Shown: positions 10,625 to 38,205 of the stretch, in pieces
Layout: the number at the start of each line of letters is the position of its first letter
Position numbering within the stretch: position 1 is the stretch's first letter
NCBI GenBank assembly: GCA_903851365.1
Contig: CAINOB010000129.1
Coordinates: 1 to 57,762 of the forward strand
DNA from: an uncultured Bacteroidota bacterium
GTDB taxonomy: Bacteria; Bacteroidota; Bacteroidia; Bacteroidales; UBA12481
Direction: 5' to 3'
DNA: 57,762 bases
Notes under the pieces: generated by a model
Database searches by the model: none
What the model was told of the DNA's origin: nothing
Seen by the model: only the letters and a program-made list of their open reading frames with translations
Translations under genes and position numbers: made by a program

Positions 10625-12422
10625 GGATAATTTTTGCTTTCGCAGGACCGATAACTGCAGAAATTTTTTCAAAATCCGCTTCTTTCAAATCTGTTATAGA
10701 ATCAAAATGAGTCAGCAGGGCGGTTCGGGTTTGCTCGCCAATTCCTTTAATTAGGTCCAACTCCGAAACAGCCATCGATTTTTCCCTCCGCCGCCGGTGA
10801 TGTCCTATTCCAAAACGGTGGGCCTCGTTTCTCATTTGCTGTATCAACCGCAAACTTTCAGATTTTTTATCCAGATATAATGGCGCGGAATCTCCGGGAA
10901 AATATATTTCTTCAAGTCGCTTTGCGATGCCAACCAGCGCAATTTTATGCCGTAGTCCCAGCTTTTCAAGACTTTTCAATGCCGAGTGCAGTTGACCCTT
11001 TCCCCCATCAACTACTATCAGCTGGGGTAAATCCAGACCTTCATCGAGCATTCTTTTGTACCGGCGAAAAACCACTTCTTCCATGGATGCAAAATCATCA
11101 GGTCCCTCAACGGTTTTAATATTGAAATGCCGGTAATCGCTCTTTGCCGGAAGCGCGTTTCTGAAAACGATGCAGGAAGCAACGGGATGTGTGCCCTGTA
11201 TATTTGAATTGTCGAAACACTCAATATGCACAGGCAGATCCTTGAGCCTCAGGTCATTCTGTAAAGTTTCGAGTTTTCGGGTTACTCCCGATGCACTGAT
11301 ATGTTTTACTTGCTGTTTCTGCCTGTCGAGCTTGAAATACCTGGCATTCCGTGTTGATAGGTCGAGCAAAGCCTTTTTATCCCCCTTTTGCGGAACCGTA
11401 ATAATCAGGTTTTCCAGCGGATATTCCAGAGCAAACGGCACAATGATTTCCGGGGCATCGCTCTGGATCTGCTGCCTCATCTCAATAATCGCGTACAAAA
11501 GCAGCTCATCCTCGGTTTCATCCAAACGTTTTTTCAGCTCCATGGCATGGGTTTGAACAAGCGCACCGTCTACTACTTTCATGTAATTTACATACCCTGC
11601 ACGCTCATCTGATACAATGGAAAACACGTCGACGTGCTTGATATTCGTGTTACCGACAGTTGATTTACTTTGGAACTGTTCGAGCAGGCTGATTTTTTCT
11701 TTCATCTGGGCAGCCTGTTCGTACTCATATTTCTCTGCCAGTTCATGCATTTCGGCCGTCAGCATTTTTATCACTCCCTGGGTATTTCCTTTCAGGATTT
11801 TTCCGATCTGATCGATCTGGGCCAGATAATCGGTTTCCTTCTGTAAGCCAATGCAGGGGCCCAAACAGTTTCCGATATGATATTCGAGGCAGACCTTGTA
11901 TTTTCCCGCTTTGACATTTTCTTCCGAGAGGTTAAGATTGCAGGTCCTGATTTTGTAAATACTCCGTATCAGGTCGATCAGGTTTTTCCAGATCTTTCCC
12001 GAGGTATACGGGCCAAAATATTTCGATCCGTCACGGATTACTTTCCTGGTAGTAAAGACTTTAGGAAACGGTTCATTGGAAATGCATATCCAAGGGAAGG
12101 TTTTATCGTCTTTTAAAAGGACATTATATCTTGGTAAGTGCCTTTTAATCAGATTATTTTCTAATAAAAGGGCATCACTTTCGGTATCTACAACCAGATG
12201 GTTAATAGTATGGATTTTACGAATCAGCACTGCCAGTTTTGCATTATCCGGAGCTTTCTGAAAGTAAGATCCTACCCTTTTCTTCAGGTTTTTTGCTTTT
12301 CCAATATAGATGATCAGGCCATCGCTGTTGATGAACTGGTAAATCCCCGGTTTTTCAGGAAGCGACTTTACCTTTTCGAGGAGTACCGCAGGAGGATTAT
12401 ATTCTTCGAACCGGGTTGCCAT
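10596..12422 (-). CDS. uvrC: Excinuclease ABC subunit C
   Basis: Dual-incision endonuclease of nucleotide-excision repair. N-terminal GIY-YIG domain (about residues 15-95; KPGIYQFINSDGLIIYIGKA and KNLKKRVGSYF), central cysteine-containing region (CLEYHIGNCLGPCIG), UVR motif (about 205-240), the RNase H-like C-terminal nuclease (HIECFDNSNIQGTHPVAS, VVDGGKGQL) and terminal helix-hairpin-helix repeats (LDLIKGIGEQTRTALLTHFD). Full length at 608 aa. It abuts the adenine deaminase gene with no gap and converges on ogt. Confidence 0.97.
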   Translation of the reverse strand: MATRFEEYNPPAVLLEKVKSLPEKPGIYQFINSDGLIIYIGKAKNLKKRVGSYFQKAPDNAKLAVLIRKIHTINHLVVDTESDALLLENNLIKRHLPRYNVLLKDDKTFPWICISNEPFPKVFTTRKVIRDGSKYFGPYTSGKIWKNLIDLIRSIYKIRTCNLNLSEENVKAGKYKVCLEYHIGNCLGPCIGLQKETDYLAQIDQIGKILKGNTQGVIKMLTAEMHELAEKYEYEQAAQMKEKISLLEQFQSKSTVGNTNIKHVDVFSIVSDERAGYVNYMKVVDGALVQTHAMELKKRLDETEDELLLYAIIEMRQQIQSDAPEIIVPFALEYPLENLIITVPQKGDKKALLDLSTRNARYFKLDRQKQQVKHISASGVTRKLETLQNDLRLKDLPVHIECFDNSNIQGTHPVASCIVFRNALPAKSDYRHFNIKTVEGPDDFASMEEVVFRRYKRMLDEGLDLPQLIVVDGGKGQLHSALKSLEKLGLRHKIALVGIAKRLEEIYFPGDSAPLYLDKKSESLRLIQQMRNEAHRFGIGHHRRRREKSMAVSELDLIKGIGEQTRTALLTHFDSITDLKEADFEKISAVIGPAKAKIILNHFQKAEE

Positions 12423-25487: not shown

Positions 25488-26801
25488 CTACAGAGTATCA
25501 CTGAGTAAATCGTCCATTGACTTACAAGGCATGCCACCAAGGATTTTGCAGCCATTGTCGGTCACTACCAGAGAATCCTCTATCCTAACCCCGAACTTGC
25601 CGTACAGGTAGAGTCCGGGCTCATTTGTGAAGGTCATTCCAGTAGTCATTATTAACTTATTATTTCTGACGAGATAGGGGAATTCATGTCCTTCGGTACC
25701 GATACCGTGGCCGAGACGATGAGTAAAATATTCATAATCGGCGCCATAACCGCCCTTGGCCATTTCCTTACGGGCTGCTGCATCCACATCACCGCATATC
25801 GCACCATTATGTATTGCCTTAAAGGCTGCCTGCTGGGCGTTCCAAACGGTTTCCCACACTTTTTTCAGCTCATCCGAAGGCTTGCCAAAAATTGCTGTGC
25901 GGGTAACATCCGACTTATACCCCTTTAACGAACAACCGCCATCCACCAAAACAACATCGCCCTGTTCAAGAGTTTTAATAAATTTCGTCCCATGTGGAAA
26001 AGCAGCGTTGGTTCCGAACAGCGGGCCTCCGCCACCCGAAACACCCATATCTGTATGTGCCTGAGAGACTATCTTGCTAAATTCGCCGGTTGTCATGCCT
26101 GGGTGCAATTGTGCAAATCCCTTTTTATAAGCCAGCTTGGTAATCCGGTTGGCCACATCCATCAACTGGATTTCCTTGGCTGTTTTCACGGCGCGGGTAT
26201 TTTCCGTAATCACTGAACCATCCACTACCTGAACACCGCCAGCCCGGCGTATACCCTCGTTAACAAAACTCCGGGCATTCGGATCGATCCCGATTTTTCC
26301 TCCCGGCTTGCCTATTTTTTTCAGATAATCAGCAAAAAGAGAGTAGGGGCCCTCATGCTCGTGCCAGGTCCTGATATCTTTTCCATATTCAATGACTTCC
26401 TCGGCCCGTTGCTTTTCAAAGGCCGGACAGATCCAGACCATATCAGCATGCGGACTCAGCAAAAATCCGAAAACCCGCTCACTGCTCCACCAGGCAGTAT
26501 TGGTGAAATATCCCAGATTATTACCTCCCTCAACGAATAGTGCATCGATATTCGATTTAGCCATCCACTCCCTGGCCTTTTCCTGTCGCGCCAGATAATC
26601 TTCGCGCACAATCTCCGGCAACCCTTTTAAAAGATCTGTCTGAACCTGCTCCGCACTATCATTTGTCATCCCGACGAAAGTCGGGACCCCGTCCCTAACC
26701 ACACCTGCTTTTTCGGGAACCGCGCCACTGAGCATCGGTGCTGCAGCTACACCAATTGCTGATAAAGCCGCTGTTTTCAGAAAATCCCTTCTATTTTTCA
26801 T
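25488..26801 (-). CDS. M24-family Xaa-Pro aminopeptidase/dipeptidase, Tat-exported
   Basis: Metallopeptidase with the pita-bread fold that cleaves X-Pro bonds. A twin-arginine-like signal is at the N-terminus (KNRRDFLKTAALSAIGVAAA). The creatinase-like N-domain spans about 75-215 and the catalytic domain about 220-437. Metal ligands are visible in VLVDGGCSLKGYKSDVTRTA (two Asp), HRLGHGIGTEGHE (His), FTNEPGLY (Glu) and GVRIEDSLVV (Glu). Residues about 34-46 (VRDGVPTFVGMTN) are encoded by a copy of the dispersed hairpin repeat, placed between signal peptide and mature enzyme, where an insertion is tolerable. 437 aa. Confidence 0.93.
   Translation of the reverse strand: MKNRRDFLKTAALSAIGVAAAPMLSGAVPEKAGVVRDGVPTFVGMTNDSAEQVQTDLLKGLPEIVREDYLARQEKAREWMAKSNIDALFVEGGNNLGYFTNTAWWSSERVFGFLLSPHADMVWICPAFEKQRAEEVIEYGKDIRTWHEHEGPYSLFADYLKKIGKPGGKIGIDPNARSFVNEGIRRAGGVQVVDGSVITENTRAVKTAKEIQLMDVANRITKLAYKKGFAQLHPGMTTGEFSKIVSQAHTDMGVSGGGGPLFGTNAAFPHGTKFIKTLEQGDVVLVDGGCSLKGYKSDVTRTAIFGKPSDELKKVWETVWNAQQAAFKAIHNGAICGDVDAAARKEMAKGGYGADYEYFTHRLGHGIGTEGHEFPYLVRNNKLIMTTGMTFTNEPGLYLYGKFGVRIEDSLVVTDNGCKILGGMPCKSMDDLLSDTL
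26663..26702 (-). repeat. Dispersed hairpin repeat, copy inside the M24 peptidase gene
   Basis: This 40-bp stretch matches the repeats at 36339 and 36781 at about 31 of 40 positions. Its stem TCCCGAC-GAAA-GTCGGGA is perfect although the bases differ from the other copies, so pairing has been conserved by paired changes. It is translated in frame as part of the linker after the signal peptide. Confidence 0.8.
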
Positions 26802-33748: not shown

Positions 33749-36301
33749 ATGAAGCGTTATACTTATTTGGCTGTCACCTTGATGATAGCCGGCACTGCAG
33801 CTGTTACTGCGATTTTGCTGCCGAAGCATTCCGTTAAGCCACAACCGATTGAAATAGTTTCTGAAGAGTCCGATAATTATATCAGGCGTCAGGAGTGGAT
33901 CGAGGCCATGCATAAAACCGCCCCGGGAGTTGACTGGCGCGAGATGGATCAGCAAACCCGGCAGGAGATGTACGAGCAGAAGCTTCCCGCATTGCAGGAA
34001 GCCGGGCGCGAGGGCCAGGAAAAGAGCGGCGTAATTGAAAGTATTGCCAATGGTTACCTTACCGGACAATGGATCGAAAAGGGCAGCAGCAATATGGCTG
34101 GCCGCGTGCATTGTGTAGACATTGATTTTACCCATAACCTTCTTTATGCTGCCGCCGACGGTGGTCAGATATGGATGGGCACCCTGGACGGAAAAAACTG
34201 GAAATCACTTTCCGACCCTTACCGAATTGGCAATATACAGTTTATCAGGGCCTTTCAGAATCCCGGAGGAACTACGCGTGTGTTGGCTTCGAACGACAGG
34301 GTACGCATGAATTATTCCGATGACATGGGAATTACCTGGAAGCTAAGTAATGGCTTAACAGCCTATTATAGCGGTTATAACCTTATTCGTTCGGTAAGCC
34401 AGGCCGACGGTACCTTATATATCCTGGCGTACAAATCACCTTCTCTGTATCTGCTCCGCTCAAAGGATCTCGGCACCAGCTTTACCCAGATCATCAAGAG
34501 TGCAGGATCAAATCTTTCAGATATCTGGACCAATCGTTTCGGAACAGATTCCCTGTATCTGATCGATAAAAACCAGATTTACTCATTGCAGGATTCTACC
34601 TCCTGGAGAAAAATTGCTGAAGCAAACCTGAATTTTGCGACCACTGAAATTAACCAGGTTCAGCTTGCCGGCAGCACCATATCCTCGGTTACCACACTTT
34701 ATGCCATGTTCAGGCTCGACCAGTCGACCCGCTTTTACGGATCAGCTCCGGGTGCCACGGCATGGACCTATCGCAGCCAGGTTGATCAGGGACCGTTCAT
34801 GTCGAATAGCTTCGGCTCTTCGCCCACCAATCCGAACTTTATCGGTTTCGGGGGACTAAATGCTGAGTACAGCAGCGACGGGGGAGTTACCTGGACCTAT
34901 GTCAACAGCTGGGGCGACTATTATGGCGACCCCACGCATAAGCTGCACGCTGATATTCCTGAAGTGGAATTTTTTAAGAAACCCGATGGCACCGACCTGG
35001 TATACATCAGCACTGATGGCGGCAGCTTCATGTCGGAAAACCAGATGCTCAGCGTGACGAATGTATCGCAGAACGGATTAAATATCAGCCAATATTATTC
35101 GACATACACCCATCGTACCAAAACCAATGTTATTTATGCCGGTGCTCAGGATCAGGGATTTCAGAAAACCTGGGAGGTAAACACCGGGGCGGTTAAATTC
35201 GATCAGACCATCAGTGGGGATTACGGGCATGTGGTATCGGGTGATGGCGGAAACAGCATGTGGACGGTTTATCCCGGTTTTGCCATGTACTATCCCGATG
35301 CCTCCAACAGCAATGCCAGCTCATCGCTTGGTTTCGATGTCATGAAAATGAAGAACCAGTTCTGGATGCCGCCTCTCCTGGCCGATCCCTACTTTCCTGA
35401 ACGTGTGTACCTCGCAGGTGGAACCTCCACTACCGGCGCCCATATCTGGTACCTTCAGTATACCACCAGCGGCATCACAGCCACTGAGCTGCCAACGGAT
35501 TTCAGCAATGGTGATGCCAATACGCGCATTGCTTCCATGGCTTTTTCGCCGATCAATAAAGATTATCGTTATGTGCTTAATTCGGCAGGCAAATTTTTCG
35601 TTTCCACCGACCGCGGCACCACTTATACCCAATCCACCAACAGGGGTCCCGACAGTCACTATTTTTATGGAAACAGCATCGTTCCGTCACCCCGCGATAT
35701 CAACACTATCTGGCTGGCCGGCAGCGGATATTCCGGCTACCCGGTATGGGTATCGCACAATGGCGGCCAGACTTTCCAGGCCATGTCGAACGGACTGAAA
35801 AACAGCCTGATTTATGAGATGACCTGCAACACTGACGGTACCATACTTTTTGCCGCCTCCGAGGTAGGTCCGTGGGTATATATTGTGGCGAACAACATGT
35901 GGTACGACCTGAGCGGAATAGCTGCTCCGCAGCAAACTTACTGGGGTGTCGATTATATCCCGGCATTGCGTACAGCGCGGTTTGCCACGTATGGAAGGGG
36001 TATCTGGGACTTTAAAATATCGACATTCAGCGGCGTCAATGATATCATCGCAAATGCTGGTTTTACCGTTTCAACGTATCCTAACCCTTGCAAAGAAAGT
36101 CTTAACATCTCCGTTGACAATATAAATCAGAGTGAGCTGCTGATCACTTTGATCACTTTAGACGGAAAGACCATAAAGACGGAAAGACCGGCATCGGGCA
36201 GCAATGTTCAGATGGACCTGAGCAGTTTGCCGGCCGGCGTGTACCTGTTATCGGTAGAGCAAAGCGGGACGAGGAAAGTGGTGAAAGTGGTGAGAGAGTA
36301 G
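33749..36301 (+). CDS. T9SS-exported BNR/sortilin-like beta-propeller protein
   Basis: An 850-aa protein: N-terminal signal/anchor (LAVTLMIAGTAAVTAILL), a long central region of BNR/sialidase-like repeats (Asp-box elements such as SDDMGITWK, SSDGGVTW and SHNGGQTF) forming one or two beta propellers (about residues 90-760), then a type A T9SS sorting domain (about 770-850) with YPNPCKESLNIS and LPAGVYLLSVEQSG. It is thus secreted across the outer membrane. No catalytic residues are assignable; a binding role is likely. It starts 18 nt after ruvB. Confidence 0.88.
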   Translation: MKRYTYLAVTLMIAGTAAVTAILLPKHSVKPQPIEIVSEESDNYIRRQEWIEAMHKTAPGVDWREMDQQTRQEMYEQKLPALQEAGREGQEKSGVIESIANGYLTGQWIEKGSSNMAGRVHCVDIDFTHNLLYAAADGGQIWMGTLDGKNWKSLSDPYRIGNIQFIRAFQNPGGTTRVLASNDRVRMNYSDDMGITWKLSNGLTAYYSGYNLIRSVSQADGTLYILAYKSPSLYLLRSKDLGTSFTQIIKSAGSNLSDIWTNRFGTDSLYLIDKNQIYSLQDSTSWRKIAEANLNFATTEINQVQLAGSTISSVTTLYAMFRLDQSTRFYGSAPGATAWTYRSQVDQGPFMSNSFGSSPTNPNFIGFGGLNAEYSSDGGVTWTYVNSWGDYYGDPTHKLHADIPEVEFFKKPDGTDLVYISTDGGSFMSENQMLSVTNVSQNGLNISQYYSTYTHRTKTNVIYAGAQDQGFQKTWEVNTGAVKFDQTISGDYGHVVSGDGGNSMWTVYPGFAMYYPDASNSNASSSLGFDVMKMKNQFWMPPLLADPYFPERVYLAGGTSTTGAHIWYLQYTTSGITATELPTDFSNGDANTRIASMAFSPINKDYRYVLNSAGKFFVSTDRGTTYTQSTNRGPDSHYFYGNSIVPSPRDINTIWLAGSGYSGYPVWVSHNGGQTFQAMSNGLKNSLIYEMTCNTDGTILFAASEVGPWVYIVANNMWYDLSGIAAPQQTYWGVDYIPALRTARFATYGRGIWDFKISTFSGVNDIIANAGFTVSTYPNPCKESLNISVDNINQSELLITLITLDGKTIKTERPASGSNVQMDLSSLPAGVYLLSVEQSGTRKVVKVVRE

Positions 36302-36338
36302 GTACTGTAGGGGAGGACCCGTGCGTCCTCCCTCTTTG
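36302..36338. terminator. Probable hairpin terminator after the T9SS cargo gene
   Basis: GGGGAGGAC-CCGTGC-GTCCTCCC forms a GC-rich hairpin followed by TCTTT, about 10 nt after the stop codon. The T tract is short, so termination is plausible rather than certain. Confidence 0.5.
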
Positions 36339-36399
36339 GCTGAATGTCGTGGTATGCGACGGGGTCCCCGCCTTCGCGGGGATGACAACTCTATCGGGG
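36339..36399 (+). repeat. 61-bp repeat, left arm of the GIY-YIG cassette
   Basis: It is 56 of 61 bases identical to the reverse complement of 36781-36841. It contains the hairpin TCCCCGC-CTTC-GCGGGGA. Weaker similarity continues about 20 bp inward (GGTAATTATGTGAG versus GGCAGTTGGTGAG). Confidence 0.9.
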
Positions 36400-36466
36400 G
36401 TAATTATGTGAGGTAGATTTCTCCATTTGGGTGACTCTATTGCGTCTATAATGAGAAAAGAAGCAA

Positions 36467-36757
36467 ATGGGCACCGATTCATTTTTTGTTTACATCATGT
36501 CTACCGTAAATAATAAGGTTATTTATGTCGGGTTTTCAAATGATATTAAAAGGCGAGTTTATGAACACCAAAGTCATTTGAATTTTGGATTTACGTGGAG
36601 ATACAATATTTGTAAGCTAGTTTATTACGAGCCATTTAAGTATGTCGATGAAGCCATTAAGCGTGAAAAACAACTGAAAAGATGGAATCGCGACTGGAAA
36701 GACAACCTTATTAACAAATCTAACCCTGGCTGGAACGATATCACCTCCACCCTCTGA
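36467..36757 (+). CDS. Small GIY-YIG nuclease-family protein
   Basis: A 96-aa stand-alone GIY-YIG domain of the YhbQ/UPF0213 type. The motif appears as FFVYIMSTVNNKVIYVGFSN (VYI...VYVG pattern), followed by DIKRRVYEHQSH (catalytic Arg), KLVYYEPF and the conserved Glu in DEAIKREKQLKRWNR; it ends NPGWNDI. Members of this family are putative DNA nucleases with no settled role. It lies midway between inverted repeats, which suggests that it acts on them. Confidence 0.9.
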   Translation: MGTDSFFVYIMSTVNNKVIYVGFSNDIKRRVYEHQSHLNFGFTWRYNICKLVYYEPFKYVDEAIKREKQLKRWNRDWKDNLINKSNPGWNDITSTL

Positions 36758-36780
36758 CCTGATCTTAACTCACCAACTGC

Positions 36781-36841
36781 CCTCGACAGAGTTGTCATCT
36801 CCGCGAAGGCGGGGACCCCGTCGCATACCACGGCATTCCGC
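36781..36841 (-). repeat. 61-bp repeat, right arm of the GIY-YIG cassette
   Basis: Inverted copy of 36339-36399 with five differences in 61 bp. It ends 8 bp before the stop of the acyltransferase gene. Confidence 0.9.
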
Positions 36842-36849
36842 AAGCGAAT

Positions 36850-38205
36850 CTATGACTTCATCAGTTTATCCATCTTCCCTAAAATTTCCTTGCGCAGCTC
36901 AACCATCTTTTTAATGTCCTTATTTTTCCTGCTTTTCATCCACATAAAGCGGATACGGGAGCGCCATTTGCGGTTTTCGAACATGTAGTGAACCATGTAG
37001 AGCGATGTTGGCAGGAGGGTGGCCCAGTAAAGGAGCCAGATCCACCAGGTCTTGAAAATCAATCCCACGATGAGGGTTTGCAGGAAATAACTGATGGGCA
37101 GCATTACCAGCAGACTGATGACGAAGGCGCCGGTCGACCAGAACTGCGGATCTTTGAAAAGCTTGCGCGAGAGGATCATCGGGACGCGGAACAGGTGGTA
37201 GTTATTGATCAGTGAGTAGATATGCAGCGGGAAGCCAACCGCCAGGATCAGGGTATTCCAAATCATGCGCAGCGGTCCGTAGGGTTCATGTTCGATAGTG
37301 TGATCGCGGAAATTGTACTTTTTCATCAGTTTCCAGTATTCCATGACCAGGTTGTTCATTTCGGCAATTTTTTCCGGTTGAGTTTCCCGGAGTGCACCGA
37401 TCATGCGGATCATTTCCTTATCAGCATCGAATTTATTAAAGAGGGTTTTTCCCGGCAGATTTTTCAGTTCGCGGAACCGTTCGCCATACATTACCCTGAG
37501 GTCCATCACCATATAATAAATATCCTCCCAGGGGATCTCTATCATGTGGGGCTCGATATGGATGCGGATGCGGTTGTTTAATTCTTTCAGTGCACTCTGC
37601 GGATCGTTGTGGTACAAATCCTTCAGGTCGGTTATGGTGATAGGATCGCCGTAACTCACGGTGAGCCGTCCCCTCACGTTTTCATAATTCGAATAATCGA
37701 CGCCGCAGGGAACAATTTTGAGGCCCAACTTGAAGTCGCAGGCGTTTTCGGCTTCGAAAGCGATACGTGCCAGTCCTTTTTTCAGCGGCCGAAAAAACCG
37801 CTTGTCGCCGTGGTTGCCTTCAGGAAACATGCAGATAGAGTGTCCGGTGCGCAATATCTCGGTGCAGCGGTCGAATACCTCCTGATTTTTAGCCAGATTT
37901 TCGTAGCCATCGCGGATGCGGTAAACCGGCATCATCTTGATAAAATTCAAAAACCGGGTGATGATTTTACTCTTGAAAATATCGGCCCGTGCCAGAAAAA
38001 TCGGCTGCTGGGGCATGGTAGTCACGAAAACCAGTGCATCCATCAGGGCATTCTGGTGATTGGGGGCAAAAAGCAGCGGGTCGTTGGGCTTGAATTTATC
38101 GCGACCGCGGATCTCTGTGCGGCGGTAGAAAATATTCTTGAAGGCGAAACTTGTCCAATACCGGACAAATTGATATCCAAAGGTGTAATGCTCAACTTTT
38201 TTCAT
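36850..38205 (-). CDS. PlsC-type 1-acyl-glycerol-phosphate acyltransferase, long form
   Basis: A 451-aa membrane-associated acyltransferase. The acceptor motif is APNHQNALMD (His50 to Asp56, so HX5D rather than the common HX4D, as in some glycerol-3-phosphate acyltransferases), followed by the FPEGNHGDKRFF glycerophosphate-binding box. The C-terminal third has two or three hydrophobic segments (TLILAVGFPLHIYSLI, FVISLLVMLPISYFL, WIWLLYWATLLPTSLYM). It probably acts in phospholipid synthesis; the substrate is not certain. Its start overlaps the symporter stop by 4 nt. Confidence 0.85.
   Translation of the reverse strand: MKKVEHYTFGYQFVRYWTSFAFKNIFYRRTEIRGRDKFKPNDPLLFAPNHQNALMDALVFVTTMPQQPIFLARADIFKSKIITRFLNFIKMMPVYRIRDGYENLAKNQEVFDRCTEILRTGHSICMFPEGNHGDKRFFRPLKKGLARIAFEAENACDFKLGLKIVPCGVDYSNYENVRGRLTVSYGDPITITDLKDLYHNDPQSALKELNNRIRIHIEPHMIEIPWEDIYYMVMDLRVMYGERFRELKNLPGKTLFNKFDADKEMIRMIGALRETQPEKIAEMNNLVMEYWKLMKKYNFRDHTIEHEPYGPLRMIWNTLILAVGFPLHIYSLINNYHLFRVPMILSRKLFKDPQFWSTGAFVISLLVMLPISYFLQTLIVGLIFKTWWIWLLYWATLLPTSLYMVHYMFENRKWRSRIRFMWMKSRKNKDIKKMVELRKEILGKMDKLMKS

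Follow-up and report, generated by a model that had tools for sequence, protein, structure and literature searches.

A gene for a small GIY-YIG nuclease lies between inverted REPs of one type, its arms and the gene itself are matched, and this pairing recurs in three phyla. In addition, solo REPs are dispersed and differ between relatives as clean units of ~60-70 bp, and covariation is seen in their stems. Sequence evidence establishes the pairing. That the enzyme acts on the repeats is unproven but is the inference with the most support; neither cleavage nor binding nor movement was observed. On balance, and with moderate confidence, we favor the reading that the GIY-YIG nuclease and CGTC-tagged REPs together make up a single selfish system, equivalent for CGTC REPs to what RAYT is for GTAG REPs, in which recognition, cleavage, and movement are inferred.

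RESULTS

A GIY-YIG gene enclosed by inverted REPs

The window (i.e., the whole stretch of DNA analyzed here) comprises 57,762 bp of contig C129 in genome G000 (5.2 Mb). Positions 36467-36757 (+) hold a gene for a 96-aa single-domain GIY-YIG nuclease, supported by Pfam PF01541, a protein alignment (A1), and an AlphaFold model. The Pfam match has an E-value of 2.3e-16 and scores 60.3 bits against a cut-off of 22.6, and residues Y9, Y20, R30, and E67, which are invariant across the 19 sequences of A1, are intact in the window protein. The conserved Tyr, Tyr, Arg, and Glu of GIY-YIG nucleases have catalytic roles. By domain and catalytic residues, the protein is thus a member of the GIY-YIG nuclease superfamily, with metal-dependent DNA cleavage inferred. 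The AlphaFold model (pLDDT 93.6, pTM 0.85) is nearest to the UPF0213 structure 1zg2 (E 2e-4), followed by Slx1 entries with weak E-values (0.02-0.12) and TM scores of 0.49-0.61. Searches with the window protein gave a weak UzuA match in a defense library (E=0.0011) and two PHROGs families of unknown function, and a back-translated peptide search of genome contigs returned a same-genus orthologue (L059) as its sole match.

The left arm, one CGTC-type REP unit at 36339-36405 (-), was defined by inverted-repeat search, pattern match, fold, and a repeat alignment (A2). Its tag and hairpin core occupy 36358-36386 (-), with the stem at 36365-36382, the tag facing the gene, and 0 pattern mismatches. 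The right arm at 36775-36841 (+), an inverted copy of this unit found by inverted-repeat search, pattern match, and fold, has its core at 36794-36822 (+) with one stem mismatch. Each unit is laid out as a GTCA tag, a hairpin TCCCCGC-GAAG-GCGGGGA, and a CCCCGTC tail. A first-pass annotation, made from sequence alone, had described the 96-aa GIY-YIG gene as lying between 61-bp inverted arms, and this held: 36339-36399 and 36781-36841 are identical at 56/61 positions, and the match extends to 67 bp (60/67). Its claim that both arms center on a hairpin held for the left arm, whose stem TCCCCGC/GCGGGGA folds as DNA at -12.2 kcal/mol; the minimum-energy fold of the right arm, which carries the stem mismatch, does not form that hairpin. 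It had also placed a third, gene-free copy 10 kb away with ~31/40 identity. By pattern match and alignment, this solo copy of the REP core lies at 26665-26693 (+) and agrees at 32/40 positions of the aligned core, but it sits in frame inside a 437-aa ORF (25488-26801, -), near the N-terminus. Its stem, CCCGAC/GTCGGG, differs from that of the arms but is intact.

The cassette is bordered by two convergent genes in the ORF list, which also served as boundaries for the empty-site comparison: an 850-aa left neighbor (33749-36301, +), whose C-terminus we take to be type IX sorting domain-like, and a 451-aa right neighbor (36850-38205, -), which we take to be acyltransferase-like. Just outside the left arm, an unrelated second hairpin sequence lies at 36310-36332 (no strand assigned); by eye, it also occurs at both outer ends of the cassette of a relative, G006.

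A second GIY-YIG domain in the window, at 12123-12350 (-), is part of a 608-codon frame that we take to be probably UvrC. Across G000 there are five GIY-YIG matches: three are small genes, and the other two belong to longer open frames of 608 and 459 codons. All three small genes are flanked by inverted copies of the repeat, with arms of 59, 45, and 38 bp, and the stem is the same within each locus: CCCCGC in the window and CCCGAC in the other two. Elsewhere, in contig C126, an ORF that we take to be gltX-like (L117, 2569-4251, -) also reads REPs in frame, two in number, one of them identified by eye. A decayed cassette had been suggested there by the spacing and was ruled out by this ORF with its in-frame REPs.

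The repeat is a dispersed family with a conserved hairpin

The repeat was searched for with a pattern of 29 positions in which the inner stem is unconstrained and up to 3 mismatches are allowed. It matched 3 times in the window, against a mean of 0.00 in 100 shuffles, and 88 times in G000, where the reversed control gave 0. The repeat is therefore a genome-wide dispersed hairpin family rather than just three copies, and these two comparisons rule out a chance inverted repeat.

Alignment A2 contains 35 copies, namely the three of the window and 32 from 20 stretches of G000. The hairpin scan had given 36 rows, of which four were dropped as outside the family. Since 32 of the 35 aligned copies came from a scan that requires a hairpin, the set is biased towards pairing, and the two following values carry that bias: 98.4% of alignment cells pair, and stem covariation reaches 0.373, compared with 0.125 for shuffled copies and at most 0.059 for slid structures. 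The stem types include CGC/GCG, GAC/GTC, GGC/GCC, and GTT/AAC. We also took 32 copies from G004, a genome of the same genus, that had been selected with no requirement for pairing at the three inner positions; of their 96 free inner pairs, 94 form, whereas shuffles of these copies average 78.6, with a maximum of 87. Collectively, what is conserved is the hairpin and not one single sequence.

GTCAT is invariant in all 35 copies and is preceded by T in the 32 scan-derived ones. In the window's own repeat type, the first stem pair is lost (GTCAT...GGGACC) and the tail reads CCCGTC; AT pairing of the first two stem residues, together with a CCA tail, is present in Neisseria, Azospirillum, and many of the survey loci described below. 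Given the tag and the hairpin, we identify the repeats as CGTC-tagged REPs.

REPs are concentrated around the gene across Bacteroidota

A profile built from the 19 sequences of A1 (threshold E 1e-10, at most 13 candidates scored per genome) matched in 242 of 394 Bacteroidota genomes, our own included. For 89 other genomes, flanks were examined at one high-scoring locus per genome (L120-L148, L163-L222). These loci are the best-scoring ones and not a random sample, and flanks were tested in only these 89 genomes, plus G000, of the 242 that bear the gene. A motif-free count of the 5-mers preceding hairpins within 300 bp of the gene ranked GTCAT first: it was found near the gene at 36/89 loci and on both sides at 22/89, compared with 7/89 at 700-1000 bp.

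Inverted-arm scoring alone misses diverged arms (13/30), and it was therefore replaced by a tag-hairpin test of fixed form, GTCA[TC][TC]-N(9-28)-[AG]A[TC]C with complementary ends, applied within 300 bp of the gene. By this fixed test, a repeat was found on any side at 69/89 loci and on both sides at 42/89, whereas at 700-1000 bp the corresponding values were 10/89 and 0/89. No repeat was detected by the fixed test at the remaining 20 of the 89 survey loci. Per length of non-ORF sequence, there were 195 REPs in 36,754 bp near the gene (350 bp) and 59 in 41,531 bp far from it, i.e., 5.3 versus 1.4 per kb, a 3.7-fold excess. For this density, ORFs of at least 110 aa were masked, and REPs in masked ORFs were counted on both sides of the comparison.

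The repeat types vary widely among loci (GTCATTGCGAG..GAAGCAATC, GTCATTCTGA..GAAGAATC, GTCATTCCCGC..GCGGGAATC, and others); the tag and the closing bases are common to them, partly because the fixed test requires both. The orientation of the tag relative to the gene varies between lineages.

Control genes largely lack these repeats

RAYT (Y1) genes gave 26 matches in 12 of the 13 genomes searched; 19 of the 26 were examined, and 17 were put to the fixed test. Only one had a CGTC-type repeat on any side (1/17; L085, a single repeat), and none had them on both (0/17). Ten of the 19 Y1 genes reach an inverted-flank score of at least 13, and 6 reach 20, all with other hairpins. Five RAYT-like genes of the window's genus (L078, L079, L080, L083, L087) lie between other hairpins in inverted orientation; that flanking L083 is CCCCAGACTGAAGTCTGGGG. 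The two Y1 genes of G000 are located elsewhere in the genome, with no such repeats and no inverted flanks (scores 9 and 11). RAYT was considered as the mover of the repeats and rejected, given that neither G000 Y1 gene has inverted flanks and that only 1/17 RAYT genes carries the repeat on any side and 0 on both.

Among other GIY-YIG genes, 0/11 passed the fixed test. Four of these controls (L229, L230, L231, L250) are small genes judged by eye to be of another type; the remaining seven (L046-L050, L056, L058) are more distant relatives, 35-38% identical to the window protein, five of which are rows of A1. L050 has inverted arms tagged GTCAG, which the fixed test does not count. The type represented by L229, L230, L231, and L250 reads ILYS or similar, with an RYY/RYF motif (by eye) and no REPs; upstream of L229 and L250, bases resembling tRNA ends were seen, again by eye.

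Arms and gene are matched within genomes

We compared arms over 136 loci, comprising the 89 above, 40 further survey genes, and 7 of the window's genus; a repeat lies within 350 bp on any side at 107 of them and on both sides at 70. In genomes with at least two genes, similarity is 0.89 between the left and right arms of one gene and 0.65 between genes of the same genome, with the arms within a cassette more alike in 26/29 cases (Wilcoxon p=1.8e-5). Protein identity correlates with arm similarity within genomes (rho 0.70, 35 pairs), and the correlation remains at rho 0.58 (31 pairs) once four gene pairs of at least 90% identity are removed, although pairs sharing a gene or a genome are not independent. 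Gene and arms are thus matched, with the repeat type tracking the gene within genomes.

Cassettes and solo copies differ between relatives

Both neighbor genes, the 850-aa and the 451-aa one, were traced in eight relatives. G002 and G008 have empty sites, in which the matched neighbor ends are 15 and 2 bp apart with no repeat. The same gap holds 122 bp with one solo copy in G003, 192 bp of other, repetitive-looking sequence in G007, and different DNA in G005. The cassette is present in G001 and G004, where the arms are in tandem (G001, two left arms; G004, at least three left arms and two right arms). G006 has a different GIY-YIG protein (54% identity, versus 88% for that of G001) between different arms, and its 451-aa neighbor is as close to that of G000 as the G001 neighbor is (86% and 85% identity, respectively). 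Equal descent of the G006 cassette with its neighbors does not fit, and replacement or separate arrival is likely.

A cassette lies between sufB and sufC in Azospirillum lipoferum 4B, and five other Azospirillum records have ~32-129 bp between these genes with no such repeat, i.e., empty sites. In Shinella sp. PSBB067, the sufB-sufC gap holds a different gene with different stems, so that two different cassettes (L151 and L161) are seen in one gap. A search for an empty site in S. meliloti plasmids gave nothing usable, 80% query coverage being reached in only 4/134 records.

Solo copies were compared over one 10-kb stretch of G000, with four copies, against G001 at 79-84% identity. Two of the four are absent from G001, one is shared, and one was not covered. 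The two absent copies are missing cleanly, as single units of 69 bp and ~60 bp, and no clear target duplication was seen at either difference at this level of identity. Without an outgroup, gain in G000 cannot be distinguished from loss in G001. The shared copy (L101:9779-9807; orthologue in L307 of G001) has a different intact stem in each genome within conserved flanks, and in G001 this stem differs by one base from that of the genome's own cassette arms. This copy provides a single example of stem replacement.

The pairing extends to other phyla

A tblastn search found 33 plasmid-collection records, some of them chromosome-sized, of which 14 from 3 phyla were examined, chosen for diversity. 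By the fixed test, 10 of these loci have a repeat on any side and 7 on both, compared with 2 and 0 farther out; 4/14 have none by this test. When tag variants are counted by eye (GTCAC in Sphingobium, CGTCG in Novosphingobium, and CCTC in Sinorhizobium meliloti), 13/14 loci have repeats, those of Photobacterium being on one side only (by eye). For Rhizobium tumorigenes, no repeats were seen at the locus by eye, and there were 0 pattern matches in the whole record. Hosts with arms include Neisseria gonorrhoeae, Aeromonas caviae, Azospirillum, Rhizobium sp. CIAT894, Shinella, Spirosoma, and Planktothrix, the last being the only record that represents Cyanobacteriota.

In the 4.9 Mb of the Aeromonas record, a matching pattern has just 3 matches, each of them located at the gene; hairpins and gene therefore occur together there and nowhere else in the record. 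The Neisseria record has 227 matches. On the A. lipoferum plasmid, the 10 matches make up five dimers spaced 57-60 bp, two of which are the cassette arms, and two other Azospirillum plasmids have 0 and 2 matches. Separately, a region at about 130-207 kb of Photobacterium sp. GJ3 (NZ_CP073579.1) contains at least 31 copies of an GTCGTTCCCGC hairpin in tandem-like arrays, mostly at multiples of about 200 bp apart.

Gene-bearing genomes have more copies of the repeat

Repeat copies were counted across the 394 genomes with a pattern that covers several REP types but only some of all types. The median number of matches was 24 in the 242 gene-bearing genomes and 6.5 in the 152 without the gene (p=4e-16). 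The gene is found in 53/60 genomes with at least 60 matches, compared with 189/334 of those with fewer, and in 27/33 genomes with at least 100. Beyond two within-genus comparisons, no phylogenetic correction was made: in one genus the medians were 20 with the gene (n=21) and 5 without (n=42; p=0.008), and in a second they were 57.5 (n=12) and 17 (n=8; p=0.09). There are fewer than 15 matches in 87 of the 242 gene-bearing genomes, the pattern covering only some REP types.

Seven repeat-rich genomes gave no profile match (G061, G375, G069, G180, G302, G405, and G437), among them G061 with 537 matches (one contig) and G375 with 125 (one contig). A Pfam search found only larger GIY-YIG frames in six of the seven, while G405 has a single small gene, which is of another type. 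On contig C1 of G061 (L309-L338), the REPs fall into three or more kinds and are often closely spaced, and small GIY-YIG genes are absent; among these 30 loci, no other common gene was found between REPs, REP-derived frames aside.

Within the window's genus, five gene-bearing genomes have 25-120 copies, and G002 and G005, which have larger GIY-YIG frames only, have 0 and 1. G007, which is 92% complete, has 128 copies and no gene of this type. Perfect agreement of gene and repeat within the genus was considered and rejected, the small GIY-YIG gene of G007 being of another type without REPs. Repeat-rich genomes without the gene could reflect its loss once the repeats had spread, or gaps in the assemblies, neither of which has been shown.

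DISCUSSION

Proposed mechanism

Under the reading that we favor, the enzyme would recognize the GTCA-tagged hairpin, probably when the DNA is single-stranded or extruded. This form of recognition is inferred from the fold, whose closest match is UPF0213, followed by the branched-DNA nuclease Slx1. The enzyme would nick the hairpin foot, the simplest step linking gene and repeat, and repair or strand transfer from the nick would copy the hairpin to a new place. Candidate routes from nick to new copy are strand transfer, break repair with template switching, and single-strand excision and capture. Such nick-driven copying would also rewrite resident stems and keep both arms alike, and occasionally an entire REP-gene-REP cassette may be carried to another site or host.

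A bolder reading, on which we would not commit ourselves in either direction, is that this is a second, independently evolved REP-mobilizing class. Here, a one-domain GIY-YIG nuclease, and not an HUH transposase, would make and maintain CGTC REPs, including dRS3, across phyla by cutting tagged hairpins, copying ~60-bp units, and rewriting stems to the current type, in a key-and-lock coevolution.

The first-pass annotation had likened the layout to REP/RAYT systems with a GIY-YIG enzyme in place of the transposase, which our data support. It further inferred that the nuclease recognizes or nicks the hairpins and spreads both itself and gene-free copies; this is consistent with the data but not shown. 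The checks that it proposed gave the following: a genome search found copies both with and without the gene in G000, empty sites for alignment exist (G002, G008, and 5 Azospirillum relatives), and the repeat tracks the gene within genomes (rho 0.58 over 31 pairs). It held that the link would be coincidental if repeats were equally common beside unrelated genes, which was not met (1/17 RAYT, 0/11 GIY-YIG). Two other refuting observations that it named, the gene without flanking repeats and repeats in genomes without the gene, were each met in part, as 20/89 loci have no repeat by the fixed test and the gene is missing from some genomes rich in repeats.

Alternative explanations

The GIY-YIG gene might be a passenger, with another enzyme moving CGTC REPs in trans and the gene carried as cargo, as in a composite transposon. 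REP-rich genomes without the gene (G061, G375, G007, and others) speak for this, as do REPs that flank other genes, e.g., a thioredoxin-like ORF of G007 (by eye) between inverted copies ~650 bp apart. Against it, the same gene type adjoins the arms in three phyla, the arms track the gene, and the Y1 genes of relatives lack these repeats (1/17 on any side, 0 on both) while 10/19 have other inverted flanks. Moreover, the 30 REP neighborhoods of G061 have no other common ORF, REP-derived frames aside. We consider the passenger reading unlikely.

A second alternative, which we also think improbable, is a host-serving or parasitic specialist that trims or resolves hairpins and sits among REPs for protection or regulation without spreading them. 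In its favor are a fold closest to UPF0213 and to the structure-selective nuclease Slx1, and the existence of other GIY-YIG genes without REPs (0/11 pass). However, the cassette is patchy, G006 having a different gene and arms between neighbors that are 83-86% identical, and REPs are more numerous, not fewer, in gene-bearing genomes.

Chance or insertion preference, whereby REPs accumulate in the gaps between genes and would end up around any small gene acquired horizontally, is very unlikely: REPs do occur in far intergenic sequence (1.4 per kb), but there is a 3.7-fold excess near the gene per non-ORF length, both-sided repeats are found at 42/89 loci near and 0/89 far, the RAYT and other GIY-YIG controls are nearly empty, and the arms are matched.

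Equally hard to sustain is a classical GIY-YIG homing endonuclease whose target is the uninterrupted REP, with gap repair copying the gene into that target. The GIY-YIG fold, the solo REP of G003 in the gap where relatives have the cassette, and the orthologous solo REP whose intact stem in G001 is a different one, only a base away from the arms of the G001 cassette, would suit it, but the gene lies between two complete inverted REPs in intergenic sequence, not inside one split REP, and empty sites without any such REP exist. Without a dedicated search, no intron was noticed either.

Relation to known systems

The first-pass annotation knew of no settled description of the pairing; the repeats themselves are already known as CGTC-tagged REPs (PMC3733652). 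These were defined in five phyla, including dRS3 (Di Nocera, De Gregorio and Rocco 2013, PMC3733652), and comprise the neisserial dRS3 and the Rickettsia RPE-4/RPE-6; A. lipoferum, S. meliloti, and Neisseriae are among the hosts named (PMC3733652). Our repeats resemble them in the unpaired CGTC/TGTC tag at one end, complementary hairpin variation, dispersed copies, dimers, and occasional copies within genes. No tyrosine transposase gene was found flanked by CGTC REPs, which "apparently lack a dedicated transposase" (PMC3733652), and it was suggested in 2013 that their own mobile elements had disappeared (PMC3733652). The difference is that no dedicated enzyme was reported for them, whereas here an enzyme gene adjoins the repeats. 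The term "GIY" is absent from the main text of PMC3733652, and we found no link between GIY-YIG and REPs in the open-access literature searched, the coverage of which was incomplete and is no proof of absence. What our data add is a candidate dedicated partner for CGTC REPs, whose action on the repeats is inferred, and not the repeats.

REPtrons (RAYT with GTAG REPs and REPINs) likewise have a small DNA-processing gene between inverted hairpin repeats, numerous gene-free copies, and repeat types matched to the gene. They differ in having an HUH-Y1 enzyme and another tag, whereas the window enzyme is a GIY-YIG protein of unrelated fold and chemistry, and none of the Y1 genes tested in relatives is flanked on both sides by the repeats described here (0/17). 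UPF0213/YhbQ proteins (PDB 1zg2, 1ywl) are alike in size and fold and are the closest solved relatives by sequence and structure; however, the matches name no function, and the more distant single-domain relatives that we tested lack REP flanks. Slx1 and other branched-DNA GIY-YIG nucleases are the next fold matches, and junction nicking is the model proposed here, but they are not known to be linked to repeats. Slx1 is eukaryotic and partner-dependent. GIY-YIG homing endonucleases and Penelope-like elements show the GIY-YIG domain in a mobile setting; unlike these, the 96-aa protein has no room for a reverse transcriptase or a second domain.

REPs are common in bacterial chromosomes, and while an enzyme is known for the GTAG half, none was described for the CGTC half when it was published in 2013. 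A candidate enzyme is now supplied in three of the hosts named in 2013 (in S. meliloti via the CCTC variant, by eye). With a matched gene in three phyla, the question becomes directly testable using a 96-aa protein and short oligonucleotides. If our reading is true, there would be a new enzyme class for small-repeat mobility, dRS3-type repeats would be explained, and a use would be found for proteins annotated only as "GIY-YIG nuclease family protein"; the system might also yield a compact hairpin-directed nickase.
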